From IMG/VR virus record IMGVR_UViG_3300020119_000151, positions 1 to 53,856 of that record: a stretch of DNA of 53,856 bases; one strand, given 5' to 3'. This DNA is from a virus. The notes below the pieces were generated by a model that saw nothing but the letters and a program-made list of their open reading frames with translations, did no database searches and was not told the origin of the DNA. The position numbers and the translations under genes are program-made. This document shows positions 3,221 to 19,631 of the stretch, piece after piece (position 1 is the first letter of the stretch; every line of letters starts with the position of its first letter).

Positions 3221-4144
3221 ATGGACGAAGCAACGCAATATCTGAACGAGTGGCAGCAAGCGCAGGACCGTTATCGGGCCGGCGTCAATGCCGGTTACTC
3301 GGACGCGGACGCGCAACAGTTGTACCTCGCGCCCGTGCAAGCGAAATGGGACGTTCTGAAGTCGGTTCCGCCGGCATTGAAAACAAAAGCCGCGACTGAT
3401 CTGGATACGGCACACATCAACTTTTTGAAGGGCGTTCAGGCGGGCTATCAACCCGGGCAGGCCGCAGACCTCTATTTGAAACCCGCCCTGGCCGAATGGC
3501 AGGGCGCGGCCAACCTGCCCCAGCGCCAGCTTCCCAAGACTTTGGAACAAAGAACCGAGTGGTACGCTCAAAATCCGGCGATGCAACAGGAGGAATCCGA
3601 GGCCCAGCAGCAAATCGCGGAGGGCGTTCCGATCAAGGATGCCATCGAGGGACACCCGATGCTTTTGAAAGCGCCTGGCTTTTCCCAAGTGTGGCGTCCC
3701 ATGTATGAATCCGCCGTTCGCCGCGGTGAAACCGCACAGGCGAAAACGGAACAGGAAAACAGCCCTGAAGGACTGGCGCGGCAGATGTTTCAAATCGCCG
3801 CCGGACGCAAGAATTTCGCCGCTGATTCGCCGGCACAGGCGTTTTTCACCCAGCGCCTTGGTGAGCTTGAAAATCAGGCGACCAATGGGCCGGCGGCAAC
3901 CGCGCCGAACGTCGTTCCCGTGCCGTCGCAGAGATATGCTCCGAAACCGCCAGATGAAGGCCCAACGCCCGAAGAACTGGTTCAGGAGCAACATCCCGAC
4001 TGGACACCCGCACAGGTTAAGCTAGGGGTTTCCGGTAGATTGGGAGGGGCAATCACCCTACCCGAAGTAGGGGAAGTTCGTAAGGGATACCGCTACAATG
4101 GCGGCAACCCTGCCCTTAAATCTAATTGGGAAAAAGTCGAATGA
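3221..4144 (+). CDS. Helical virion-associated protein, unknown function
   Basis: A 307-residue, mostly helical, charged protein. Two related segments (about 8-45 and 62-95) each read like a helix, then GxxAGY..G/DAxxLYL, then a helix with W, suggesting an internal duplication. The C-terminal 30 residues contain a glycine/tyrosine motif (GYRYNGGNP followed by W-E-K-V) often seen at the ends of phage virion proteins. Its stop overlaps the start of the giant gene by ATGA. No catalytic residues are recognised. Confidence 0.6.
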   Translation: MDEATQYLNEWQQAQDRYRAGVNAGYSDADAQQLYLAPVQAKWDVLKSVPPALKTKAATDLDTAHINFLKGVQAGYQPGQAADLYLKPALAEWQGAANLPQRQLPKTLEQRTEWYAQNPAMQQEESEAQQQIAEGVPIKDAIEGHPMLLKAPGFSQVWRPMYESAVRRGETAQAKTEQENSPEGLARQMFQIAAGRKNFAADSPAQAFFTQRLGELENQATNGPAATAPNVVPVPSQRYAPKPPDEGPTPEELVQEQHPDWTPAQVKLGVSGRLGGAITLPEVGEVRKGYRYNGGNPALKSNWEKVE

Positions 4145-7100
4145 GCGAACCTTGGGAAGATTTTCAACAAGGCGCGACGGTGGCAGACGCGCCATCTTCG
4201 GATACTCCACCGTGGGAAGATTTCAAGCCCGCCGTCCTCTCAGACCAAGCCAAGGCTGATTTGGTTGAAACGGCCAAGAAGAACGCCCAGCGGCAGGCCG
4301 CGCTGGGTCAGCCGTTTGCCGAGGTTCAGCCCGGCGGAGACGTGCAGCAACGCGCTCCCGACAACAACGCCGAAGCCAACCGTCAGGAATTCGCCAGCCT
4401 TCCGGGCCGGCTATCCAATGCGGCTGAAGAAGTCGGCGCGGAGATCCTGAACTATCCCGCCGAACTGTGGCGGGCTGATACCGGCAAACCCATGCAGTTT
4501 GTCGTCAAAAAGGACGAGAACGGCAAGGACCAGCTTACGACCGAGGAAAAGCCGCTTCCGTTCCAGCCTGGCATTTCCAAGTTTGAAAACTTCCAGATGG
4601 CGAATGAGGACATCGATCCGGTCAATTCGCTCATGGGCAAACTCGTCCGCGGCGCAGGGACGCCGGGGATGCTTTTGACGTTGCCCGCCGGAGAAGCAGA
4701 CCTTGTGAAAGGCTACTTTCTAACGCAAACCGTTCCTGGCGTCGTCGAGGGGGCGCAAGGCGCTTTGGACACCAGCAAAAGCACGAAGGAGCGCGTTGAA
4801 TCCGGCCTGTCGGGTACGGTGAACGGCCTTTTCTCATACCTGTTGGGGTTGAAGGCCGCAAAAACGCCGCCTGAGAAACTGGCGAGCGAGTTGAACGCTA
4901 CCACCCCTTTGCAGCGGGAAACGCCTGAAGGAGCCCAGCCGTCGCCAATCGTTCAAAAGGTGAATCAAAATCCTTGGGACGATTTTAAGCAGCCGGAGAC
5001 GCCGCCCGCGTTTGTAGGTGAGAAGCTTCCCGCCGGAATGGAAATCCAGCCCGTTGAAACGAAACCGGCTGAAAGTGAAACGAAACCGCCTGTTTCTGAA
5101 ACGGGCGAGCCATTAACTTTACAGCAAATTGCTGATAACCAAAAAGAGCAACACAACAAAACCGTCGCCATAATTCAAAAATTGCGCCCCGGCCTTGATG
5201 TCCAATCTGGGGGGCCAATGGGGGGTATTGAAATGTCTCCCAACGGAAAAGTATTGCGGGTTGGGCCGGAACTTCTTCAAAACGTGCAGGAAATGTATCC
5301 CGGAAGGGAGGAGGAAATAATTAGCCGATTGCTTGACGAGGAGGATATACACCGAAATCAATTCGACGAGCTAGGGGAAGGATTTCAGAAAAAACTTAGT
5401 GACTTGTGGAATGATGCGCCACAAGAAATAAAAAATCTGGTCAAAAGTATTTATTCAACAGACCCAGGAATGGAGGCGCATCATTGGGGCGCAGAATTGT
5501 TGCGAATGGGGCAACAGGCAAAAAACGGAGACTTAACCGAAACCGTCCATCCGACGCGCGGAGATACCGCAGCTAATGGGATTTCCAAGTTAAAAGATTG
5601 GGCGGAAAATCAAACGGGAGACATTGGAAAAGTATTGGGCAATAAGTCCCCAATCGAATCGCTGGGTGAAGGCATCGACTTTGCCACCATCCAAAAGCCG
5701 CATTTGGTCGGCGTCGAGGCAGGACTGAAGCTCACCCCTGAAGATGTTCCAGCGCTCCAAGCCTTGCAGAAGCAATCAGTCGGTGAAATGACCGCCGCCG
5801 CGCAGACCGGCGACAACGCGGCCTTTCAAACCCTGATGGGTAAAAACTCGTTTATCGGCGGCGCAATCGAGGGCGCAAGGCGTAAGGGTCCGAATTACGA
5901 TGTTTATCAATCCCTGAAATCTTCCCCGCCACCGGAATCACCAATTCCAGCGCCGGCAGTTCCGACAGCCGAACCAGCGGCGCAAACTCCCGTTCCGGCG
6001 GCGGGTGAAGTTCCGTCTGGATTCAAAGCTCCGCCCATGCCGGAAACATTCAATTCGGCAGAAGATGTTTTGAAGTATCGGCAGGCATATAAAGACGCCG
6101 AAATCGAGTTTTACAAGTCGCTTGGATTGACTGATGCCGAAGCAAACAAGTTTTTCCGCGCTGGAGACAGCCGAAGCAGCTTGGATGTGTCTAAAATTGA
6201 AGAAAAACTGACGCCTGAAAATCAGGCGCGACTGGATAGTTTTTCGCGTGGCGACGGTGGAGCGGTTTACCAATGGGACAGGCAATACAATCCCGAAGAA
6301 TTGGTTGACGAAACCAGCAAGTCAGATCTTGCCAGAAGCCTTGTCCAAAACATAGCCCGCGAATCTGCCCCGGCTGATTTTGGGGATAAGCTGCTTCATG
6401 GCGTCATCGCCTTACGAAACCTGAAAGCAAACGGGGGAACTTGGAGCGATGTTGCACGTGAGTTGGATTCATTCACTACACGTAATTCAGGTTCTCAAGG
6501 TGACAAGGCTGAATACTTTAAAAACCTTGGATTACAGTTAAGAGAATTTGCCGCCCGTCAGGGCATTGAATTGCCACAGGGGGATATGGGCGGAAAAATA
6601 CCCGATGTCCTGACGCACGGCGACGAGGTTCATGCCACCATGCCGGACGGCACGGAAGTCCAAGGCCACGTCATCGGCGCGGACAAAGAGGGCAACTCCG
6701 TCATCATCCAAAAGACCGGCGAAACGGTCACATTGCCAGAAAAACTAACGGAGGAAAAATCCCATGCCAATCCAAAGTCAAAAACAGTGGAAGTTCTTCG
6801 CAATCCACCACCCGGACCTGTTGAAGAAGTGGCAGGCGGAAAGCCCAGTGAGATTCAGCAGCCTGCCCCAGCACGTACCGCCGAAAGTGCGGGATTACCG
6901 ACCCAAAAAACTGCCGGTGTTCCTCAAGCCGGTTCCGGCGACGTAGCGCCAGAAGTTGAGTTTGTTGATTCGACAGGTTTGACTTCAATGCAGAAGGGCA
7001 AGCTAAAGAAAACCCTGTCCACCACGGTTTCAAAGCGAAACAGCCAAAAGACCTACACCGGCAGCAGGGCTAAAGTTGTCTCTGAAATGGTGAACGATGG

Positions 7101-10100
7101 GTACGAGCCAAAAACCGAACAAGTCAACGCCGTCCCAGATTTGAGCCGGAGACAATTTAATAACATGGACGGTCGGCAGCAGGAGGCGTTTGCAAAGCGT
7201 CAAGCCGAGGCTGGGAAGAAAACTGAATATCGGCTTGAGCATCCAAGCGGATCATTTTTTGATGTCACCAAGGCGGAACACGATTACGCAAAATGGCTAT
7301 CCGAAAGGAATCAAAAACCCGTCGAAACCCCGGTTCAGGCGACGGCGAAGGTTGCGGAGCATATTGCTGAAGTGAAGCAGGCCGAAGGCGCACGTCCCGC
7401 GAAGGAAATCAAAAACGAGTTGGTTGACCATCTGGAAAAGGCGGTTGAGGACGCCAAAGATGAGGATGAATACCTGAAATTGGAAACGGTCAAAGTTCAA
7501 ACCGGAACCCGAGCCAACGCTGCTTTGATGATGGAAGACAAGCCGCTTTCCGAAGTCAAAAACTTAACTAACGCCAATGGTGTTAGGTTTTTCAGCCAGC
7601 ACATTCAACGCGCTTTGGAAAAACATGCTCCGAAAATCGAAATAAACATTCCCGGCGATGGAGACTTCAAGATTTTCAACACCAAGCAGGCGTTGACCAG
7701 TGTTTTGGAACGTGCCAAGAAGATTCAGACAAGTTCAACTGAACCTGTTGCAATAAGCCGTTCTGGAACCTCCAAAGCAGACCGCGAATGGATTCAAAAA
7801 CAGCTTGAAAAACAGCCAGTCGAACCGCCCCCCGCGCAGCCCGCTGAAAAACTGGTCGGCATGGGCGCGGCCATCCCTGAAGAATTCAAGCAGGGCCAGC
7901 AATCGCCGACGAGTATCAAGAACGCCACCGTCGAAAACGAACGGGCCGCACGGGGATTGCCGCCGGCCATCCAACCCGCCAAGCGCGGATTTGGCCGCGT
8001 GTGGGATGAAGCCATGGCCGCGATTGACCAAGACCCGGCAATTCAAGACCGGCTGATTGACGAACTCCGCGCCAAACCCCGCGCATTGACTGATTTTGAA
8101 GATGCGTTGCTGCTCCATCGCCAGATCGAACTGCAAAACCAGTACGGCAAATTGACGCAGGAAATGGCCCAAGCGTTCGACGACTCCAAGGAGTTTCCTA
8201 ACCGGCTGGCTGACGTGGAGGAATTGAAGCCGCGCATTGCCAACGTCAAAGACCAGCTTTTCGACCTGTACGAAATCAACAAGCATGTCGGCACGGAAAC
8301 CGGACGCGGCCTGAACGCCCGCAAGATGCTGGCGTATGAGGATTATACCTTGGCGAAGATGGAACTGGACGCCCGCGCAGCCAATGGTGGACGACCGTTG
8401 ACTGAGGAAGAATCCGCGCAAGTAAAAGCGCTGCACGACAAGATTGAAAAACTTCGCAAGGAATATGATACCTACACCGCGCAAGCGCAGGCGCGAATCT
8501 CCGCGTTGGAAGCGGAAAAGGCCCTGAACGAAATCAAACAGGAGCCGCCGGTTGAGCCGCATGTCCGCATCATCGCCGACAAGGTGAAGAAGTATTTTGA
8601 TGGCCGCGCCATGGCCGCACAAAAGCGGTTATCGGGCAAAACCTTCTCGTTCGAGGCGGCATTGCCCGACCTGATTGATTTGGGAGTTTCAACCATCCTG
8701 TCCGGCGCGGCTGATTTCACCATCTGGTCATCCAAGATGCTGCAGAAGCTGGACAAGAGCATTGAGCCGTATCTGAAAACGCTTTGGGACAAGTCGCAAA
8801 ATGCGCTGGATGACCATCTTCAAAAAGGGATGGCTCCGCAAAATGTCCCGAAGGTGAAACGCGCCCTGAAAAACGTCCCCGCCGCCACCGCAAAAGAGCA
8901 GATTGTTGCCAAGCTCCGCAAGCGCATCGAGGCCGGAAAAAAGGATGAAATCACCGGATATGTTCTCAAGCTGGCGCGATTGCTGGTGTCCGAAGGCATC
9001 AAAGACCGCGATGTTCTGATTGATACCATCCACGAACACCTGAAGGAAATCGACCCGACTATCACCCGGCGCGAGACGATGGACGCCATTTCAGGCTATG
9101 GCGATTTCAAGCCGCTTTCCAAGGATGCCGTCTCAAAAGAGTTGCGCGACTTGAAAGGGCAAATGCAACAGGTTGCCAAGTTGGAGGACATGCAAGCCGG
9201 ACAGCCGCCGCTGAAAACCGGCATTGAACGGCGCATTCCGTCGAAGGAAGAAAGCCGGCTGATAAAGCTGGTGAACGAGGCGAAGCAGAAATTTCAGATC
9301 CCCATCACCGACCCGAACACGCAGCTTAAATCCGCCTTGGACACGCTCAAGACCCGGATGCAGACGCGCATCGAGGAGCTTCAGCAGAAAATCAAAGATA
9401 ACGACTTTTTGCCGCGTCCGAAGCGTGAACCTCTGAAGCTCGACACCGAAGCCTTACGCATCAAGGCCAATTTTGAGCGAGCCAAATTGGAATTTGAGCG
9501 GGCATTGCAGGATTACCGGCTGAAAAACCGTAAATGGTGGGAAAAGTCGGCGGATACGCTGGTAAAATGGCGGCGCGGCTTCCTGCTTTCGTCACCTGTC
9601 ACCCTGGCTAAGTTGACCAGTGCAGCGATTCAACGGCTGGCAATCACTCCCCTTGAGGAAGCGGTTGGCGCTGGCATCGGCAAGGCAATCCCACAAGTCG
9701 CGGCCAAAGCCCCCCGCGAAGGCGGGTTGAACACTAAAGCTGAAGCCAGAGCGTTGACGAGTGTTTTTAAACAAGGCATGAAGGACGCGGCCGAAACCAT
9801 CAGGACCGGCACAAGCCCGCTGGACGTGCTTTACGGGCAGGGCCGCGAGGGGTATGTCCGCGAAAGCATGAGTTTACCCCGTTCGGTCATCGACTTTTTT
9901 GGCAATCTTCACGCCATGCTGAAGGCTCCGGTGAAGCGGGCAGAGTTTGAACGCGCCTACGAGAAGCGCACGGAGCAAGCCATCCGTGAAGGCATAGACG
10001 TGACTGACCCCATGGTTCAAACCCGCATTGCGGTGGATTCTTACAAAGACGCCAATCGCTCAATTTTCCTGCAAGACAACTATCTTGCCACGAAGGTTAA

Positions 10101-10881
10101 AATGTTCTTCTCGGCGCAAAAGAAAAAAGGTGAGCAAACGATTGCCCCCGGCGCGAAGGCTTGGGAAACGACAGGGAAGGTCTTACTGCCCATCGTGCGC
10201 GTTCCGACGAACATCGTCGCCGAGACGTTCACCTATGCCTTTGGGCTTGGCTCAGGCAGTTTAAGGCTCGCCAATGCGCTCAGGAAGGGTTTTGACACGC
10301 TTCAGCCACAAGAGGCCGACTTAATCATGCGCGAGCTTAAAAAAGGCTCGCTGGGCTTCGCGGCGCTGCTTTACGGCTATTTCAACCCGACCATGTTCGG
10401 CGGATATTACCAACAGGGCCAGAAACGTGATCCCAATGATGCCAAGATCGGCAGCGTCAAGGTTGGTAGTGTCAACATCCCCAGCTTTTTGGTGCATAAC
10501 CCGCTTTTGGAGGTATTCCAGCTTGGGGCAACCGTCCGGCGCGTGGCTGATTCTAAAATCAAAGGCGAAACCCAGGGTTTGCCGGCCGGACTGATGGCTG
10601 GCGCACTCGGTTTGTCTGACGAGGTTCCTTTCGTGCGCGAAATGTTCGGGGAAATCCCGAAAATGTTCAATCCGCGCGAGCGCGGGGCATTTTTCGGAGA
10701 ACTGGCGAAGTCGATTTTCATCCCGCAGTTGCTCCAATGGCTTGCAAATTACACGGACAAAGACCAGAGTGGAAACACCAATCCGCGTTCGCCGCAGACA
10801 CCCTGGCAGCATGTCGAAACCGGAATTCCCGGCCTGCGTAAGAACGTGCCTGAAAAGAAACCAACCCAAATCAGCCAATGA
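4141..10881 (+). CDS. Giant 2,246-residue internal virion / polyvalent protein
   Basis: The start at 4141 is chosen because it makes the usual ATGA overlap; an ATG at 4126 is the alternative. Short PWEDF or PWDDF motifs occur at residues 4-8, 24-28 and 278-282, separated by disordered Pro/Glu/Ala-rich linkers. About residues 825-860 look like a small KOW/SH3-type barrel. Long charged coiled-coil segments lie at about 1300-1480 and 1690-1800. The C-terminal third (from RRETMDAISGYGDFKPLSKD, about 1643) is the most conserved-looking part and includes hydrophobic stretches near 1810-1840 and 2065-2090. It resembles the large polyvalent or ejection proteins of podoviruses, which leave the capsid with the DNA. 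No lysozyme-type active site was identified. Codon use shifts to AT-rich in patches (about 5085-5560, 6030-6600 and 6990-7260), suggesting mosaic domain gain. Confidence 0.7.
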   Translation: MSEPWEDFQQGATVADAPSSDTPPWEDFKPAVLSDQAKADLVETAKKNAQRQAALGQPFAEVQPGGDVQQRAPDNNAEANRQEFASLPGRLSNAAEEVGAEILNYPAELWRADTGKPMQFVVKKDENGKDQLTTEEKPLPFQPGISKFENFQMANEDIDPVNSLMGKLVRGAGTPGMLLTLPAGEADLVKGYFLTQTVPGVVEGAQGALDTSKSTKERVESGLSGTVNGLFSYLLGLKAAKTPPEKLASELNATTPLQRETPEGAQPSPIVQKVNQNPWDDFKQPETPPAFVGEKLPAGMEIQPVETKPAESETKPPVSETGEPLTLQQIADNQKEQHNKTVAIIQKLRPGLDVQSGGPMGGIEMSPNGKVLRVGPELLQNVQEMYPGREEEIISRLLDEEDIHRNQFDELGEGFQKKLSDLWNDAPQEIKNLVKSIYSTDPGMEAHHWGAELLRMGQQAKNGDLTETVHPTRGDTAANGISKLKDWAENQTGDIGKVLGNKSPIESLGEGIDFATIQKPHLVGVEAGLKLTPEDVPALQALQKQSVGEMTAAAQTGDNAAFQTLMGKNSFIGGAIEGARRKGPNYDVYQSLKSSPPPESPIPAPAVPTAEPAAQTPVPAAGEVPSGFKAPPMPETFNSAEDVLKYRQAYKDAEIEFYKSLGLTDAEANKFFRAGDSRSSLDVSKIEEKLTPENQARLDSFSRGDGGAVYQWDRQYNPEELVDETSKSDLARSLVQNIARESAPADFGDKLLHGVIALRNLKANGGTWSDVARELDSFTTRNSGSQGDKAEYFKNLGLQLREFAARQGIELPQGDMGGKIPDVLTHGDEVHATMPDGTEVQGHVIGADKEGNSVIIQKTGETVTLPEKLTEEKSHANPKSKTVEVLRNPPPGPVEEVAGGKPSEIQQPAPARTAESAGLPTQKTAGVPQAGSGDVAPEVEFVDSTGLTSMQKGKLKKTLSTTVSKRNSQKTYTGSRAKVVSEMVNDGYEPKTEQVNAVPDLSRRQFNNMDGRQQEAFAKRQAEAGKKTEYRLEHPSGSFFDVTKAEHDYAKWLSERNQKPVETPVQATAKVAEHIAEVKQAEGARPAKEIKNELVDHLEKAVEDAKDEDEYLKLETVKVQTGTRANAALMMEDKPLSEVKNLTNANGVRFFSQHIQRALEKHAPKIEINIPGDGDFKIFNTKQALTSVLERAKKIQTSSTEPVAISRSGTSKADREWIQKQLEKQPVEPPPAQPAEKLVGMGAAIPEEFKQGQQSPTSIKNATVENERAARGLPPAIQPAKRGFGRVWDEAMAAIDQDPAIQDRLIDELRAKPRALTDFEDALLLHRQIELQNQYGKLTQEMAQAFDDSKEFPNRLADVEELKPRIANVKDQLFDLYEINKHVGTETGRGLNARKMLAYEDYTLAKMELDARAANGGRPLTEEESAQVKALHDKIEKLRKEYDTYTAQAQARISALEAEKALNEIKQEPPVEPHVRIIADKVKKYFDGRAMAAQKRLSGKTFSFEAALPDLIDLGVSTILSGAADFTIWSSKMLQKLDKSIEPYLKTLWDKSQNALDDHLQKGMAPQNVPKVKRALKNVPAATAKEQIVAKLRKRIEAGKKDEITGYVLKLARLLVSEGIKDRDVLIDTIHEHLKEIDPTITRRETMDAISGYGDFKPLSKDAVSKELRDLKGQMQQVAKLEDMQAGQPPLKTGIERRIPSKEESRLIKLVNEAKQKFQIPITDPNTQLKSALDTLKTRMQTRIEELQQKIKDNDFLPRPKREPLKLDTEALRIKANFERAKLEFERALQDYRLKNRKWWEKSADTLVKWRRGFLLSSPVTLAKLTSAAIQRLAITPLEEAVGAGIGKAIPQVAAKAPREGGLNTKAEARALTSVFKQGMKDAAETIRTGTSPLDVLYGQGREGYVRESMSLPRSVIDFFGNLHAMLKAPVKRAEFERAYEKRTEQAIREGIDVTDPMVQTRIAVDSYKDANRSIFLQDNYLATKVKMFFSAQKKKGEQTIAPGAKAWETTGKVLLPIVRVPTNIVAETFTYAFGLGSGSLRLANALRKGFDTLQPQEADLIMRELKKGSLGFAALLYGYFNPTMFGGYYQQGQKRDPNDAKIGSVKVGSVNIPSFLVHNPLLEVFQLGATVRRVADSKIKGETQGLPAGLMAGALGLSDEVPFVREMFGEIPKMFNPRERGAFFGELAKSIFIPQLLQWLANYTDKDQSGNTNPRSPQTPWQHVETGIPGLRKNVPEKKPTQISQ

Positions 10882-13620: not shown

Positions 13621-16146
13621 ATGGCCGAGAAAGCAGCAACCAAGAGTTTTATCAAATCCGAGTTCGGGACGCCCGCCAAGGTTATCAACGTGGTGAAGCG
13701 TATGCAGGACGTGGAGCGCCTGCGCGCGGAGGACCGGGCTTTGATTGACGCGCTGTTTAACGGCCAGCGCCCTTACTCCGACGAGGAGGTTAAAAAGTTC
13801 AACATCCAGGTCAACGTGAATTGGGGACAGGGCAAGCGCATCATGCGGGATGCGAACACGCAGTTGAACAACGCCCTGATTCACACCGGGACCATGTTCA
13901 CTTGCACGATCAACGAAGGCCCGGTTGAGAAGCGGGACGAATGGGGTCAAATCTTCACCAAAAATCTCCATCGCCCGTTGCAGAAGGGAGTCAGCGGAAA
14001 AAAGAATTTTTTCCTCATCAAGAACCGCAATGCGTCCGTCTGTATGCACGGAATCGGCGCCTTGCTTTGGCCTTCACCTTACGCTGCGCTTCCCCGCTTT
14101 GTCGGGCTCGAAGATTTGCTGATACCAACCGAGACGCTGGTTGATTTTTCGAACATGCGTTATTTCGCGGTGAACCTGAACCTGTCCATCGGCGAACTGA
14201 TCGATTTGGTGATGAAGGACGATTCCGAAGTCATGGGCGAATGGAACAAGACCATGATTGGCGAAGTGCTGGATTCCCAGCAGGGCATCTACAACGAATC
14301 GACCCCCTCGACATGGCGCGACCAACCCGAGGCGATGGAGCAGGTATTTTTCCAGAATCGCGGCTATTACTATTCCGATGCCACGCCCAAGGTGCGTTGT
14401 GTGATGTTCTTCTATCAGGAAATGGACGACCCTAAAAAATGGTATCGTGTCGTCTATCTGAAGGAGAATCCGGGCGACAAGGTGAAGGACATTGACACGA
14501 AATTTCTGTTCGACGGCACCAAAAGACCTTTCGCCGACGAGATCGGGCAGGTTTTGAACGTGCAATACGGCGACGGCAACCTCGTCCCTCCGATGAAATA
14601 CCACAACGTCCGCGGCATGGGCGTTGACCTGTATGCGCCCGTCGAGACAGACAACCGGCTGCGCTGTGAGTTTGTTCAATCGGTCTTTGAACACATGAAG
14701 ATGTATTTCAAGATCAAGGACCCGGCAGACCGTGACCGGCTGAAGGCCCAAATCTTGCAGCAATACGGTTTCATCGTGGACGGGTTGCAGATTGTCCCCC
14801 GGACTGACCGCCATCAAATCGACCCGAACCTGGTTGAAAGCGCCATGAACCAGATGGGCGAAATCATGCAGGACAGTTCATCCTCGTACCTGCCTGGCGA
14901 AACCGGCAGCGAGCGGACGATGACGGCGAAGGAAGCGACCATCCGGGCGAATCAGGCCACGGTCCTGGTGTCGTCCATGCTGGCGTCCATGTACATGCAG
15001 GAGGGTTTCTATTACGAGGAAGAAAAGCGGCGCTTCCTGCTCAAAGATTCCACCGACCCGCTAGTTAAGCGTTTCCGCGCGAGTTGCATCAGGGAGGGCA
15101 TACCTGAAGAATTTCTTGTTCCGGAAAAGTGGGAAATCGTTGTTGAGCGTGTCTTGGGCGGCGGCGATACCACGAAGGCCCAGCAGCAATCTCAATGGTT
15201 GTTGGGCATCAAGCCCATGCTTGGACCGGCCCAGCAAACGATTGCCTTGCGGGAGTCGGTTTCCGCCATGCTGGAAGACCCGGCGAAGGCGCTCATGTAC
15301 GTCCCCTCTGCCCCGTCGCAATCTTCGCCTGGCTCCGAAATGGCCGAAGCGTTATTTGGCACGATGATGCAGGGCGTCCAGGTGGCGCCGCGCAAAGGCA
15401 TCGACTTGCAGGGTTATGTGACCCAGCTTTTGAAGATGATGGCGGAGGTCATCCAGCGCATCACGCAAACCAACAACATGGGGACGATGGAAGAAATCAT
15501 CGGTTTGGGCATCGTGTCGCAAAACGTCGAGGAATACATCCGTGTTCTCCAAGGCGACCCGCAACAGAAGCAGAACGTCAAACAGTACGGGGATGCCTTG
15601 GGCAAGATGCAGAACCTTATCAAAGGCTTTGCCCAGCGGTTGCAGCAATCCAGCCAGATGAACCAGCATCCGAAGGTTCTCGAATCCATCTCTTACAAGG
15701 ATGTCCCCGAGGACGTGAAGCGGCAGATGGAGGCGGCGGCAGGCCTGAAGCCTTCGCAGATGCAGGTGACCGACCCGAAGATGTTGAAGGCGCAACAGCA
15801 GTTGCAGATCACGGACGCGAAGTTTCAACAGAAGTCACGCCACGCGGAAATCGCCTTCCAGATGGAGCAAATCCGGAAGAACACGGAAGCGGCGAGCAAC
15901 CTTTCGAGAACCGAGCAGGTTCACCGGCAACAACTGGCACACGCGGCGGTTGCCAAGCTTGCCGAACTCATGTCCCAAACCGACGAAGGCGGCGGGGAAC
16001 AGAACGGTTCTCCGAACGGGCGCCAGATGGTCACCATGGACGCCAGCAACCCGGCCCATGTTGTCCTGGCGAAGCATTTCATGAAGCAGGCCGGCAACGA
16101 CAAGATGAAGGCGCTTCAACTGGCAAATCAACATGGCTTTCAATAA
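13621..16146 (+). CDS. Portal protein
   Basis: An 841-residue protein, large for a portal but in the range of P22-type long portals. The N-terminal half is mixed alpha/beta with the YRVVYLKENPG-type beta region typical of podovirus portals. Residues about 420-470 hold a polar loop and long helix (TMTAKEATIRANQATVL), matching the conserved TAxE helix of portals. The C-terminal 200 residues are Gln/Met-rich helices, likely forming the internal barrel. It begins at a TGA-TTT-ATG junction. It forms the 12-subunit DNA gate at the capsid vertex. Confidence 0.75.
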   Translation: MAEKAATKSFIKSEFGTPAKVINVVKRMQDVERLRAEDRALIDALFNGQRPYSDEEVKKFNIQVNVNWGQGKRIMRDANTQLNNALIHTGTMFTCTINEGPVEKRDEWGQIFTKNLHRPLQKGVSGKKNFFLIKNRNASVCMHGIGALLWPSPYAALPRFVGLEDLLIPTETLVDFSNMRYFAVNLNLSIGELIDLVMKDDSEVMGEWNKTMIGEVLDSQQGIYNESTPSTWRDQPEAMEQVFFQNRGYYYSDATPKVRCVMFFYQEMDDPKKWYRVVYLKENPGDKVKDIDTKFLFDGTKRPFADEIGQVLNVQYGDGNLVPPMKYHNVRGMGVDLYAPVETDNRLRCEFVQSVFEHMKMYFKIKDPADRDRLKAQILQQYGFIVDGLQIVPRTDRHQIDPNLVESAMNQMGEIMQDSSSSYLPGETGSERTMTAKEATIRANQATVLVSSMLASMYMQEGFYYEEEKRRFLLKDSTDPLVKRFRASCIREGIPEEFLVPEKWEIVVERVLGGGDTTKAQQQSQWLLGIKPMLGPAQQTIALRESVSAMLEDPAKALMYVPSAPSQSSPGSEMAEALFGTMMQGVQVAPRKGIDLQGYVTQLLKMMAEVIQRITQTNNMGTMEEIIGLGIVSQNVEEYIRVLQGDPQQKQNVKQYGDALGKMQNLIKGFAQRLQQSSQMNQHPKVLESISYKDVPEDVKRQMEAAAGLKPSQMQVTDPKMLKAQQQLQITDAKFQQKSRHAEIAFQMEQIRKNTEAASNLSRTEQVHRQQLAHAAVAKLAELMSQTDEGGGEQNGSPNGRQMVTMDASNPAHVVLAKHFMKQAGNDKMKALQLANQHGFQ

Positions 16147-17083
16147 CCCGACCATCTTCGACGACCCGCGCGTAACTGCCGCCGGGGGAAACATCTTTGA
16201 ACAGATGCAACCCACCCAGGGCGGCAGCAAGTTCGTCATGTGCAAGCCGGAATATCTTTCCACCAAGATACCCAACAACGTGTTCATGGAGGGAAAGGCG
16301 AACGAGCCGGCTGACGTGCCACGGGCGAAAAATCAGTGGGACAGATCGGTTCACATCATGGAGGCGCTGGGGGTGGAAGTCTTCCAGATACCCGCCGTGA
16401 AGGGATGCCAGGACCAGGTTTATGTCGCCAACGTCGGCATAGCCATCGACCCGTTTATTGTGCTGGCGCAGTACAAGGCTGACGGGCGCGCCTGCGAGAT
16501 ACCGCCGGCCAAGGCGTTCTTCGAGGGCATGGGCTATCAGTGCATCCAGCCGCCGGATTTCTTCGAGGGCGAGGCCGACCTGAAGCATTGGAAGGACAAC
16601 ATCTATTTCGGGGGCTGGGGATTATTCTCGTCCAAAAAGGCGTTCGACTGGATTTCGCAGAAAACGGGCGCAATCATCATCCCGGTTCAGGAGATCAATC
16701 CCAAGACGTATCATTTGGACTGTTCGCTTCTCGTCGTCGATGAGGAAAACTTTCTGGTTACGAAATCCGGCCTTTCTCCGGCCAGCATCAAGGAACTTCA
16801 GCGGCGCGGCAAGGTGACGTTTACCCCGGACAAGATTGCGACGACAGGCATCACCAACGGCATCCTGATACCCGAGAAGAAGATTTACCTGTCGGGCGCC
16901 TTCAATCCCGAGCAAAAGGATTATCAGCAGGCGATGGAGTTCCTTTTGGAAACGATGGATGGCTTTGGCTACACGACCATCTTTGTGGATGTGGATTCCT
17001 ACAACCCGAGCGGCGCCGACTTGAGTTGTAGCGTTTTCCACCTTACATTTCCCCCGACTGGAAAACCAATCATCACCCCATGA
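16133..17083 (+). CDS. Pentein-superfamily amidinohydrolase (DDAH / arginine deiminase-like)
   Basis: A 316-residue protein. The motifs of guanidine-modifying penteins occur in order: QDQVYVANVG (93-102, with Asp94 and Asn100), FEGEAD (144-149), HLDCSLLVVD (His194, Asp196) and a C-terminal GADLSCSVFHL with Cys299. These correspond to the substrate-binding Asp, the Glu/Asp, the catalytic His and the nucleophilic Cys of dimethylarginine dimethylaminohydrolase and its relatives, and the length fits. It should hydrolyse, or transfer an amidino group from, an arginine-like compound. It overlaps the portal gene by 14 bp, so it is made late with virion proteins. Substrate could be free arginine, a methylated or agmatine-like compound, or protein arginine; the sequence does not say. 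Confidence 0.8.
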   Translation: MAFNNPTIFDDPRVTAAGGNIFEQMQPTQGGSKFVMCKPEYLSTKIPNNVFMEGKANEPADVPRAKNQWDRSVHIMEALGVEVFQIPAVKGCQDQVYVANVGIAIDPFIVLAQYKADGRACEIPPAKAFFEGMGYQCIQPPDFFEGEADLKHWKDNIYFGGWGLFSSKKAFDWISQKTGAIIIPVQEINPKTYHLDCSLLVVDEENFLVTKSGLSPASIKELQRRGKVTFTPDKIATTGITNGILIPEKKIYLSGAFNPEQKDYQQAMEFLLETMDGFGYTTIFVDVDSYNPSGADLSCSVFHLTFPPTGKPIITP

Positions 17084-17295
17084 AATACTCCGATGAAACT
17101 GTGAAATTCGTCCTCTCCCGCCATTGGCAAAAAGTCCCCGTTGCCGACATCGTAAAGCAGGCCCGGCCTGGTCTTAAAAAGAAGCTCGCCCCCCGTGAAG
17201 TCAGGATAATCATCGGTTCCTACACGTTGCGGCATCATGGCACGGTCACCACGCGGAAAAAGATGGGTCTTGAGCCCTGCACAGTTGGTTGTTGA
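17080..17295 (+). CDS. Small basic protein, unknown
   Basis: A 71-residue basic protein that overlaps the amidinohydrolase gene by ATGA. It starts with a helix followed by the pattern VPVADIVKQ and a second basic region (KKKLAPREVRIIIGSY), compatible with a small helix-turn-helix or helical DNA/RNA-binding fold. No family is recognised. Confidence 0.55.
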   Translation: MKYSDETVKFVLSRHWQKVPVADIVKQARPGLKKKLAPREVRIIIGSYTLRHHGTVTTRKKMGLEPCTVGC

Positions 17296-17327: not shown

Positions 17328-17498
17328 ATGCAAGTCAAGTTGTGGTCACAGAACGAGTCTGCGTTGAAGAAAATAGCCGCCGAGCCGGAATACAAGAGCA
17401 TCGGCGTCTCTGTGGCAAAAATAGCCAACCTTGCAATTTCTCAGTACGTCATAAGCAGAAAGCTTGCAAGCCGCCCAAAGAAGGCCGGCAGAGGTTAA
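17328..17498 (+). CDS. Small protein, possible ribbon-helix-helix type
   Basis: A 56-residue protein starting at ATG 17328; a TTG at 17289 would add 13 residues but overlaps the upstream stop. It opens with a beta-type stretch (MQVKLWS), followed by two helices and a basic tail (SRKLASRPKKAGRG). This layout fits a ribbon-helix-helix DNA-binding protein, but the match is only by shape. Confidence 0.4.
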   Translation: MQVKLWSQNESALKKIAAEPEYKSIGVSVAKIANLAISQYVISRKLASRPKKAGRG

Positions 17499-17499
17499 G

Positions 17500-17784
17500 A
17501 TGAATCCTGGCGAACAATTTGCAAAGTATCAGAAACCCCACGCGGAAATGCTTCGCGTCGAGTCGCAAAAGGGTTGGTTTCTGACTTCACTCATTTACGC
17601 CCAGGCTGCGGTTGTCGATGCCGGCGCCAGCGCGGAGGAAATCAACGGCATGAACCGGCTGATCGAAACGCTCACCCAACTGGCGGCGGATAAACCGGAA
17701 TTCAAGCGCCTGCCGGTAAAAGTGCTTGCGGTCCTGGACCGAACCGGCGGAAAACCTGCCGAGTCCGAAGAAAAGAAATCCTGA
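17500..17784 (+). CDS. Small helical protein, unknown
   Basis: A 94-residue protein starting at 17500. A GAGG Shine-Dalgarno element lies six bases upstream, within the end of the preceding gene, and decides this start. The sequence is mostly amphipathic helix with an Ala/Glu/Leu-rich middle and an acidic C-terminus. It lies in a run of small genes between portal and scaffold, where capsid-assembly accessory proteins are often found. No domain is recognised. Confidence 0.6.
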   Translation: MNPGEQFAKYQKPHAEMLRVESQKGWFLTSLIYAQAAVVDAGASAEEINGMNRLIETLTQLAADKPEFKRLPVKVLAVLDRTGGKPAESEEKKS

Positions 17785-18317: not shown

Positions 18318-19631
18318 ATGGCCTATTATACACGTCTCTTACTATTCCCCGACGCACCCGCCGGAACCCCACCCCCGCTTGAAGTCCCTGAAGGTGGCGA
18401 CATGGTAGCCTCAATGGTGGCGTCCATGGAGTCCCAATCCGGCGGAGCGCCAGCGGCGCCAGCCGAAGCCGCGCCTGCCGCGCCACCGGCAGCGGCGCCC
18501 GCGCCTGGCGCCAAGCCGCCCGAGCCAGCAAAAGCCCCGGCGCCAGCGGCGAAGTCCACCCCGCCCGCGCCTGCCGCGAAACCGAACGCGCAACCCCCGA
18601 AGCCCGCAGCGCCCGCGCCGAAGCCCGGCGCCCCGGCTGCTCCTGCCGAGAAGCCACTGGACTGGAAAAGCGCCCCGGAGCAATTCCGCGCGGCGCATGA
18701 AAAGCTGGTCCAGGTACACCAGCAGGAAACCACGCGCCTATCAACCGAGCTTCAGCAGACTTCCGCCAAAATGCGCGAGTTGGAGGGCAGGAAGTTTCTC
18801 ACCCCGGACCAGGAGCAGAAATACGCCAATCTGGAAAAGGAACAGCAGCGCCTTGCGGCTGAACTGTACGCGCGCGACTATGAGCTTTCGCCTGAGTTCA
18901 AGGAGAAATACGAGAACAAGGCAATCGCCGTGTTCAAGGACATGGATGTTGAACTGAAGGGCATGATGGTCAACGGGGAGGATGGCAACCAGCGCCAAGC
19001 CACCCGCGCCGACTTCAACAAGGTCGTCACCGCCGCATATACGTCAAAATCCCTCGCCATCAAGACGGCGAAGGAGTTGTTCAATGAGGATGACGCCCAG
19101 GTTGTGATCGACGGCGCCCGACAACTGGCGAACATCCAGCGCGAAGGCCAGGCGGCAATCGAAGCGAAGCGCACCGGCTATCAGTCCGAGCGTGAACAGC
19201 AGCAACAGCGGTTTCAGCAGGAGTCCGAACAGGCGCGCCAAAGCTTCACCCAATACGACGGGATGCTCGCGCAGAAGTTTCCGCAATACTTCGCACCCAT
19301 CGAGGGAAACGAGGCCTACAACAAGGCGCTCGAAGAAGGGTTGAAGTACGTCGATGAGACGACCCAAGCCCTCAACAACCTGACGCCGGCCGCGCGCGTT
19401 CAGCAGACCGCGCTTTTGCGGCGCTTTGCCGCCGTGTTCCCGGCCTCGCAGGTCATCATCAAGCAGAAGAACGAGGAAATTGCCGCCCTGCAAGCGCAGA
19501 TTGCCCAACTCCGCGGCACGGACCCGGGCGAGCTTGGGCAAGGCGGCGGGGGCGGAGGCGGCGAGCAGACCGAAGCCGGCGGCACGGACGGACTGGCGAA
19601 CGAGATCGAGAACATGATGAAGAATGGATGA
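18318..19631 (+). CDS. Putative capsid scaffolding protein
   Basis: A 437-residue protein. Residues about 35-115 are an extreme Pro/Ala-rich linker; residues 120-400 are charged coiled coil rich in Glu, Gln, Lys and Arg (for example around EREQQQQRFQQESEQARQ). A run of glycines precedes a short C-terminal helix. Elongated helical proteins encoded after the portal usually scaffold procapsid assembly, with the C-terminal helix binding the coat protein. Unusually, the capsid gene is not next: about 7 kb of accessory genes intervene. An internal virion protein is the alternative. Confidence 0.55.
   Translation: MAYYTRLLLFPDAPAGTPPPLEVPEGGDMVASMVASMESQSGGAPAAPAEAAPAAPPAAAPAPGAKPPEPAKAPAPAAKSTPPAPAAKPNAQPPKPAAPAPKPGAPAAPAEKPLDWKSAPEQFRAAHEKLVQVHQQETTRLSTELQQTSAKMRELEGRKFLTPDQEQKYANLEKEQQRLAAELYARDYELSPEFKEKYENKAIAVFKDMDVELKGMMVNGEDGNQRQATRADFNKVVTAAYTSKSLAIKTAKELFNEDDAQVVIDGARQLANIQREGQAAIEAKRTGYQSEREQQQQRFQQESEQARQSFTQYDGMLAQKFPQYFAPIEGNEAYNKALEEGLKYVDETTQALNNLTPAARVQQTALLRRFAAVFPASQVIIKQKNEEIAALQAQIAQLRGTDPGELGQGGGGGGGEQTEAGGTDGLANEIENMMKNG

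Follow-up and report, generated by a model that had tools for sequence, protein, structure and literature searches.

A viral ArgZ-like pentein gene, its relatives linked to a decarboxylase, and a branch-specific arginine-to-phenylalanine exchange

The viral record IMGVR_UViG_3300020119_000151 (IMG/VR; 53,856 nucleotides, all of which were analysed and are referred to below as the window) carries a gene of the pentein (guanidino-group-modifying enzyme) superfamily that overlaps the end of a putative structural gene. Its presence raises the question of which guanidine compound a phage would need to modify, and to what end.

The pentein gene and its neighbours

The features of the locus are as follows.

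13621..16146, + strand: 841-aa gene overlapping the pentein start by 14 nt, an overlap also found in the relative L001
16133..17083, + strand: predicted ArgZ-type pentein hydrolase gene of the phrog_12759 type, 316 aa, ATG start
17080..17295, + strand: 71-aa ORF overlapping the pentein stop (ATGA), conserved in L001
17464..17784, + strand: gene with a homologue immediately after the portal-like gene of the sister phage L056, which is without the pentein

The pentein ORF is real and far from a chance reading frame. The ORF and its overlap with the upstream gene (16133-16146) are present as the first-pass annotation described them, and comparison with a relative (protein identity 91%, DNA identity 82%) reveals purifying selection (dN/dS 0.046).

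The same annotation placed the enzyme inside a virion gene cluster, directly after a portal gene. Membership of such a cluster is plausible; the identification as a portal is unconfirmed and presumably reflects no more than a resemblance of motifs. The 841-aa protein belongs to no family in Pfam, PHROGs or NCBIfam, tblastn with it finds no phage record, a PDB profile search gives nothing credible, and profile comparisons drew no match from portal-type proteins at two other loci; its structure model, built from three sequences, is too poor to use (pLDDT 39, pTM 0.25). A 33-residue C-terminal motif common to this protein and to the product of an 835-aa gene upstream of the pentein in locus L009 (hhalign probability 83%, E 8e-6; plain BLASTP E 0.019) suggests at most a relationship between the two upstream genes. 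The scaffold-like gene at 18318-19631 showed no relation to its positional counterpart in L009. In the sister phage L056 the upstream gene is 57% identical and the pentein is absent, so the pentein is accessory cargo, which may be expressed late in infection. Its position, described at first as unexpected, is so only in part: relatives repeatedly adjoin capsid, terminase, portal, tail or giant virion-type genes, while in L008 the pentein gene sits among replication-type genes.

Fold, active site and nearest families

The residues on which the assignment of the enzyme depends are encoded at the following positions (A3 is an alignment of 31 rows).

16412..16432, + strand: guanidine-side site DQVYVAN, codons D94 to N100; D94, A99 and N100 are invariant in A3 and in 74/74 further proteins
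16487..16489, + strand: codon R119, the retained substrate-side Arg, invariant in A3 and placed by PDB profile alignment
16625..16627, + strand: codon F165, replacing the carboxylate-contacting Arg; Phe in 21/21 window-clade rows
16712..16720, + strand: codons H194-L195-D196, catalytic His-Asp; H194 and D196 are invariant in A3
17027..17029, + strand: codon C299, catalytic Cys nucleophile, invariant in A3

An intact pentein enzyme is well supported. The structure model (pLDDT 88.9) contains the five-fold barrel that defines the superfamily, and the motifs recognised earlier (D94 and N100 in QDQVYVAN, FEGEAD at 144-149, H194-L-D196 and C299) are in place and come together as a site; a missing barrel or scattered motifs, either of which would have spoken against the assignment, were not what the model showed. 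The catalytic set of the superfamily (C299, H194, D94, E145 and D196) is present, and N49, E122, G146, G163, N242 and G294 are invariant in A3 together with D94, A99, N100, R119, E145, H194, D196 and C299. By alignment, N100 supplies the asparagine found at the position of ArgZ Asn71, and R119 is the counterpart of ArgZ Arg90 and human DDAH1 Arg98. The ArgZ residues concerned are numbered Asn71, Arg90, Arg139 and Cys264.

Of the enzymes on which the model can be superposed (ArgZ, DDAH, AstB and arginine deiminase, ADI), the nearest is the arginine dihydrolase ArgZ/AgrE, the best match both in Foldseek (3.7e-22) and in VIA-align (Z 37, 1.6 A across 264 residues). Other VIA-align scores are Z 29 for AstB, Z 28-29 for DDAH, Z 26 for ADI, Z 25.3 and Z 24.4 for SxtG and HsvA (amidinotransferases sharing the fold), and Z 20 for human PAD4. 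The original description of a DDAH/deiminase-type enzyme thus holds for the class and fails for the type. Among sequence families, the PHROGs match is phrog_12759 (6.1e-22; residues 35-305 against profile positions 15-321 of 327), which is annotated as of unknown function, and phmmer relates the protein to ArgZ chains at ~2e-12. The NCBIfam arginine dihydrolase NF052232 matches at 2e-18 and 66.4 bits, under its curated cut-off of 450.

Hydrolysis of methylarginine, as by DDAH, is a very improbable function. The best NCBIfam match by E-value is indeed a dimethylargininase (NF045659, Mycobacterium-type; E 1e-28), but its 100.2 bits lie under the curated cut-off of 300, and the dimethylargininase family PF19420 gives 16.1 bits, under a cut-off of 23. 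Branches with 100/100 support separate the phage family from actinobacterial DDAH, and the fold of DDAH is clearly more distant than that of ArgZ.

A decarboxylase partner in the main branch

In the main branch, the phage pentein family is tied by position and co-occurrence to a decarboxylase of the phosphatidylserine-decarboxylase (PSD) type. The corresponding family, PF02666, is present in 21/21 main-branch records and was found in 0/6 window-branch, 0/4 DDAH-like and 0/15 further window-branch records, the window record, which may be incomplete, included. Most of the 21 window-branch records are fragmentary (range 4-55 kb; seven reach 30 kb or more), so that the absence of a decarboxylase from this branch is provisional. 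The pentein also occurs in 45/45 named phage records that carry the decarboxylase; the two genes lie ~42 kb apart in Campylobacter phage NCTC12673. A reverse search starting from the decarboxylase was made with a five-row alignment (A8), substituted for an earlier alignment of nine decarboxylases that was too diverse for scanning. This alignment is biased towards a single lineage of aquatic phages. Of the 80 loci it yielded, 78 have the pentein immediately upstream of the decarboxylase, and both misses are at contig ends; in 63/63 testable loci the pentein is downstream of a capsid-protein homologue. Among 17 aligned decarboxylases, the His and Gly-Ser of the presumed PSD site are kept in 17/17, and the Asp of the Ala-Asp-Gly motif, also taken to belong to it, in 16/17 (Asn in L012).

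Arginine dihydrolases convert arginine to ornithine, CO2 and ammonia. Since arginine to ornithine to putrescine is the most economical pathway for a pentein combined with a decarboxylase, the main-branch pentein would form ornithine from arginine and the PSD-type pyruvoyl decarboxylase would form putrescine from ornithine; the resulting polyamines would serve late infection and neutralise the packaged DNA. Activity throughout this phage family is predicted. Circumstantial for polyamine synthesis is the 2.7-3.3-fold rise of host argBCD when Campylobacter is infected with phage NCTC12673, a carrier of the main-branch pair (PMC6024767). A transcriptome paper on this phage mentions neither gene. 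No description of the pair was found in the PMC papers searched, and the nearest of them, PMC11360552, assigns viral psd to lipid metabolism.

Searches for other polyamine genes detected AdoMet decarboxylase and CN-hydrolase in 0/31 records each, and PLP ornithine/arginine decarboxylase and PvlArgDC in 0/26 records each.

A decarboxylase that makes amines would also suit an amidinotransferase, to which it could supply the acceptor; the pentein would then move the amidino group of arginine to an amine such as a polyamine, a lipid head group or a modified DNA base. Relatives in Campylobacter phages are annotated in this way, the fold is common to the class, and, because hydrolases and amidinotransferases share their catalytic residues, sequence alone cannot separate the two. 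The fold and sequence of the window protein are, however, clearly nearer to ArgZ, and it matches no amidinotransferase family in Pfam or NCBIfam, which makes such a transfer improbable.

Residue 165, the likely substrate and known systems

The window branch differs from all others at a residue that would face the substrate. Position 165 is Arg in 28/28 other viral rows and in 74/74 further proteins, and the rows with F165 form one clade (support 100/100, stem 1.39 changes per column); the exchange has a single origin. Its match with the absence of the decarboxylase therefore counts as one observation, not 21. Five positions separate the clade (112, 165, 201, 259 and 288), of which only 165 is taken to align with a known substrate-contacting residue. 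In the PDB profile alignment F165 falls on the Arg139 position of ArgZ, equivalent to Arg145 of DDAH1, so that the second carboxylate-side arginine is lacking while the other, R119, is kept. According to a DDAH1 review (PMC10958460), Arg145 of DDAH1 contacts the alpha-carboxy group of the substrate, and decarboxylated guanidines bind DDAH1 with this contact dispensable. D288 (Ser in the main branch) was considered as a charge swap accompanying F165 and dropped; it starts a helix in the model (DSSP helix 288-293), is therefore read as an exchange between two helix-capping residues, and is given no weight.

Candidate cellular donors of the F165 clade were sought, but only other relatives turned up, on plasmids (actinobacterial DDAH-type genes) and on four genome contigs (two Mesorhizobium, one Thermoleophilaceae and one Omnitrophica, L051). 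As read by eye, Arg is retained at 165 in three of these contigs, the two from Mesorhizobium and the one from Thermoleophilaceae. A PSD-type gene lies directly upstream of the pentein relative in the Thermoleophilaceae contig; none was recognised by eye among the ORFs listed for the Mesorhizobium contigs.

The exchange to F165 makes free arginine a less evident candidate substrate. The main rival explanation is nevertheless that the enzyme still hydrolyses free arginine in the ordinary way, as a dihydrolase or a deiminase; R119 alone would hold the carboxylate, and during infection the enzyme would remove host arginine or release ammonia and ornithine. ArgZ is the closest relative in fold and sequence, R119, N100 and the full catalytic set are kept, and the rise of host arginine biosynthesis genes seen under a phage with a main-branch member (PMC6024767) would fit. 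Against this, Phe is fixed in all 21 window-branch loci and Arg in all the other proteins, and fixation of a different residue where the substrate is contacted suggests that the substrate itself has changed; free-arginine hydrolysis is thus possible, though rather unlikely.

A lost carboxylate contact would also suit peptidyl-arginine, and the overlap with a putative structural gene could point to a protein-arginine deiminase that converts arginines of virion or host proteins to citrulline and is perhaps packaged, as first proposed. No support for modification or packaging was found. The model covers nearly the whole of the small-molecule enzyme ArgZ (264 residues) with no added folded domain, human PAD4 reaches Z 20, a profile search for PF04371 (agmatine deiminase / PAD_porph) had no match in the window record, and the L008 pentein gene has replication-type genes around it; a role of this kind is quite improbable.

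The best explanation as a whole, held tentatively, combines an ArgZ-fold hydrolase, a main branch that would lead from arginine through ornithine to putrescine, and a window enzyme that would act on a decarboxylated guanidine. The window protein would be a soluble hydrolase cleaving a small-molecule guanidine through a covalent intermediate on Cys299; the carboxylate-free substrate would most likely be host-made agmatine, which it would turn into putrescine (or N-carbamoylputrescine), a single phage enzyme thereby standing in for the main-branch pair. Among the points against this explanation, R119 is kept, no other polyamine gene was found in the records searched, and in L009, a member of the window branch, an agmatine-deiminase-type gene lies directly downstream of the pentein and would be redundant if the enzyme already used agmatine. 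The most specific form, a two-enzyme putrescine module spread over many phages of widely differing kinds, often beside a capsid gene, in which the PSD-fold protein is an amino acid decarboxylase and from which the window branch arose by the R-to-F exchange and loss of the decarboxylase to become a one-step agmatine dihydrolase, is correspondingly less probable and somewhat speculative. To our knowledge, no enzyme with agmatine dihydrolase activity has been described.

A family labelled 'amidinotransferase' or 'unknown function' is thus linked to a decarboxylase whose lipid name probably misleads and, in many phages, to a capsid gene. The link provides a testable pathway for phage-made polyamines, which condense DNA and support translation, and R165F is a natural candidate for a specificity switch. 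Where a viral psd gene that has been interpreted as serving phosphatidylethanolamine synthesis (as in PMC11360552) stands beside a pentein, it may belong to amino acid metabolism; if the putrescine module is real, phage psd genes now read as lipid genes would be polyamine genes.

Among known systems, the closest is the cyanobacterial arginine dihydrolase ArgZ/AgrE (PDB 6jv1, 6lrh), which has in common with the window protein the fold, the catalytic Cys, His and Asp, the Asn71-aligned Asn and R119. At 21% identity, the phage-borne window protein differs in lacking the ornithine cyclodeaminase domain, in having F165 for Arg and in scoring under the NF052232 cut-off. The phrog_12759 proteins of Campylobacter Fletchervirus and Bacteroides DAC phages (labelled 'amidinotransferase' or hypothetical) are of the same family, with the same catalytic set and 25-30% identity; they keep R165 and their genomes carry the PSD-type decarboxylase, whereas the window has neither. 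DDAH shares the pentein fold and catalytic residues, with 14-16% identity in the structural alignment, and forms a separate clade. In the virus-encoded polyamine pathways of Li et al. 2023 (PMC9992855), phage enzymes, including pyruvoyl decarboxylases, make putrescine or spermidine; the terms dihydrolase, pentein and phosphatidylserine are absent from that text, and, unlike the pentein-PSD pair, those pathways use AdoMetDC-type or PLP decarboxylases, arginase and agmatine deiminase.

The pentein gene and its surroundings

The pentein gene is considered here together with these features of the window:

4126-10881: 2251-aa protein with no Pfam match
13621-16146: putative portal, 841 aa
16133-17083 (+): pentein, 316 aa
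17080-17295: basic 71-aa ORF, kept in L001
17464-17784: ORF with a homolog in L056
19635-19895: 86-aa gene downstream of the pentein

The pentein start overlaps the 3' end of the 841-aa gene by 14 nt; at the other end, the ATG of the 71-aa ORF overlaps the pentein stop codon. Since the 14-nt overlap is also present in L001, the nearest relative, and the two pentein genes differ with a dN/dS of 0.046 (dN 0.062, dS 1.35; the ratio is approximate, dS being high), the gene is real and constrained. In the sister phage L056, a homolog of the 841-aa upstream gene (57% identity) is followed directly by the homolog of 17464-17784, and the pentein is absent from the 52.7-kb record; this marks the pentein as an accessory gene inserted in an otherwise collinear stretch. 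The L056 homolog of the 86-aa gene starts like a GroES co-chaperonin, and the Pfam Cpn10 match (8e-4) found in one of the 65 window proteins probably belongs to this gene.

Among relatives, the pentein is found after a terminase (L011 and a group of lake phages), downstream of a portal (L012, phrog_12, 1.3e-5; L019, phrog_146, 8e-114), directly after a giant relative of the window's 2251-aa protein (L017, L018), or between a giant LPD38 gene and a tail-type gene that we take to be of tail-collar type (L010). It also occurs among replication-type genes (L008, Campylobacter phages), with helicase relatives nearby in L004 and L023; placement in the head/tail module is therefore frequent, not universal. 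Between the large gene that precedes the pentein in the window and the one in L009 (2260-4767), shared sequence is limited to a C-terminal motif of 33 residues (hhalign probability 83%). In the lake phages (L074 9017-10217 and relatives), the pentein is followed by two genes, of ~134 aa (13 loci) and ~267 aa (14 loci), for which a family search found no match.

Enzyme type

In Pfam, the pentein reaches only a DDAH match below threshold, the NCBIfam matches (dimethylargininase, 1e-28; arginine dihydrolase, 2e-18) fall far under cut-off, and the PHROGs match is phrog_12759 (unknown function). A structure model built with 31 rows (pLDDT 88.9, pTM 0.85) has a predicted fold closest to the arginine dihydrolase ArgZ/AgrE, both by Foldseek (E 3.7e-22) and by VIA-align (Z 37.1, 1.6 Å over 264 residues, 21% identity), ahead of AstB and DDAH (both ~Z 29), arginine deiminase (26), amidinotransferases (24-25), and agmatine deiminase and PAD4 (20). 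In the 31-row alignment (identity down to 20%), 14 columns are invariant, including the known catalytic ones. The pentein motifs recognized in the first-pass annotation hold up, but the DDAH or arginine deiminase type proposed there is displaced by ArgZ/AgrE as the nearest relative.

A probable decarboxylase partner in phages

Scanning with an alignment of six rows recovered 41 viral loci, and gene clustering around these and two phage records revealed one recurrent neighbor in 24 loci (repeats counted), a phosphatidylserine-decarboxylase (PSD)-type protein (PF02666, with E-values of 2e-18 to 4e-17 for the four proteins scanned; phrog_12670, unknown function). PF02666 is present in 21 of 31 whole records: all 21 of the main branch, none of the six of the window branch, and none of the four with remote DDAH-like penteins. 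Campylobacter phages have the decarboxylase, but the two genes lie ~42 kb apart (33.7-34.7 and 76.6-77.4 kb in NCTC12673). Among 50,697 phage records, all 45 with the decarboxylase also carry the pentein, although these represent two phage groups (Campylobacter, Bacteroides) and are not independent; two more records contain a pentein without the decarboxylase, one of them as a partial match of short length and the other being Xanthomonas phage phiXF1, whose pentein is DDAH-like.

Searching in the reverse direction with a query of five decarboxylases returned 215 relatives; the 80 retained form one broad lineage, a consequence of how the query was built. The pentein lies directly upstream of the decarboxylase in 78 of these; in the other two, the decarboxylase match begins at most 61 nt from the contig end. 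A homolog of the major head protein from L029 (phrog_138, 3e-71) occurs upstream on the same strand in all 63 testable loci (those of the 78 with at least 1.5 kb upstream), within 200 nt in 46, and this capsid-adjacent placement suggests a requirement late in infection, at DNA packing. The 78 pairs (within L080-L159) belong to aquatic-type phages, and their decarboxylase is easily mistaken for a lipid gene. Bacterial members of the pentein family occur on Mesorhizobium (L048, L050) and Thermoleophilaceae (L049) contigs, the latter with a partial PSD-type gene directly upstream.

By analogy with ArgZ, the main-branch pentein would convert arginine to ornithine (plus CO2 and ammonia), which the decarboxylase would then turn into putrescine; the PSD-type family includes at least one free-amino-acid decarboxylase, the fungal tryptophan decarboxylase. 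The alternative order, decarboxylation to agmatine followed by the pentein, fits worse because the paired pentein retains the arginine predicted to contact the substrate carboxylate. Host argBCD is reported to be induced in Campylobacter infected by a phage carrying the pair (PMC6024767), which is compatible with an arginine drain, among other explanations.

Residue 165 and the window branch

Using the window clade as query, a further scan added 15 loci, bringing this branch to 21. Residue 165 is Phe in all 21, and Arg in all 28 other viral rows, in all 74 full-length penteins of decarboxylase loci, and at the aligned position of ArgZ; a clean separation of the branches is seen at just five positions (112, 165, 201, 259, 288). 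The window branch is a single clade (100/100) inside the main family, with a stem length of 1.39 changes per column and an apparent sister, L012, that is itself a long branch. PF02666 is also missing from the 15 added records, and hence from all 21 (seven of at least 30 kb, the others shorter); neither PLP-type nor PvlArgDC-type decarboxylases were found in these 21 or in five main-branch records. The coincidence of R165F with decarboxylase absence derives from a single evolutionary event.

From the alignment, we take residue 165 to correspond to Arg145 of human DDAH1. In combination, the lost carboxylate contact and the missing decarboxylase point to an already decarboxylated substrate for the window branch, with host agmatine as the obvious candidate; the main rival is free arginine, the substrate in ArgZ chemistry. 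Counting against agmatine is an agmatine-deiminase-type gene (PF04371) directly after the pentein in L009 (5964-6833), a gene that could otherwise indicate N-carbamoylputrescine as the L009 substrate. This second pentein gene is present in six of 31 records, L009 and five of the main branch (L014, L015, L017, L018, L023), and in none of 16 further records. In human DDAH1, Arg145 is described as touching the alpha-carboxy group, and decarboxylated guanidine inhibitors bind there, the Arg145 carboxy contact being dispensable (PMC10958460).
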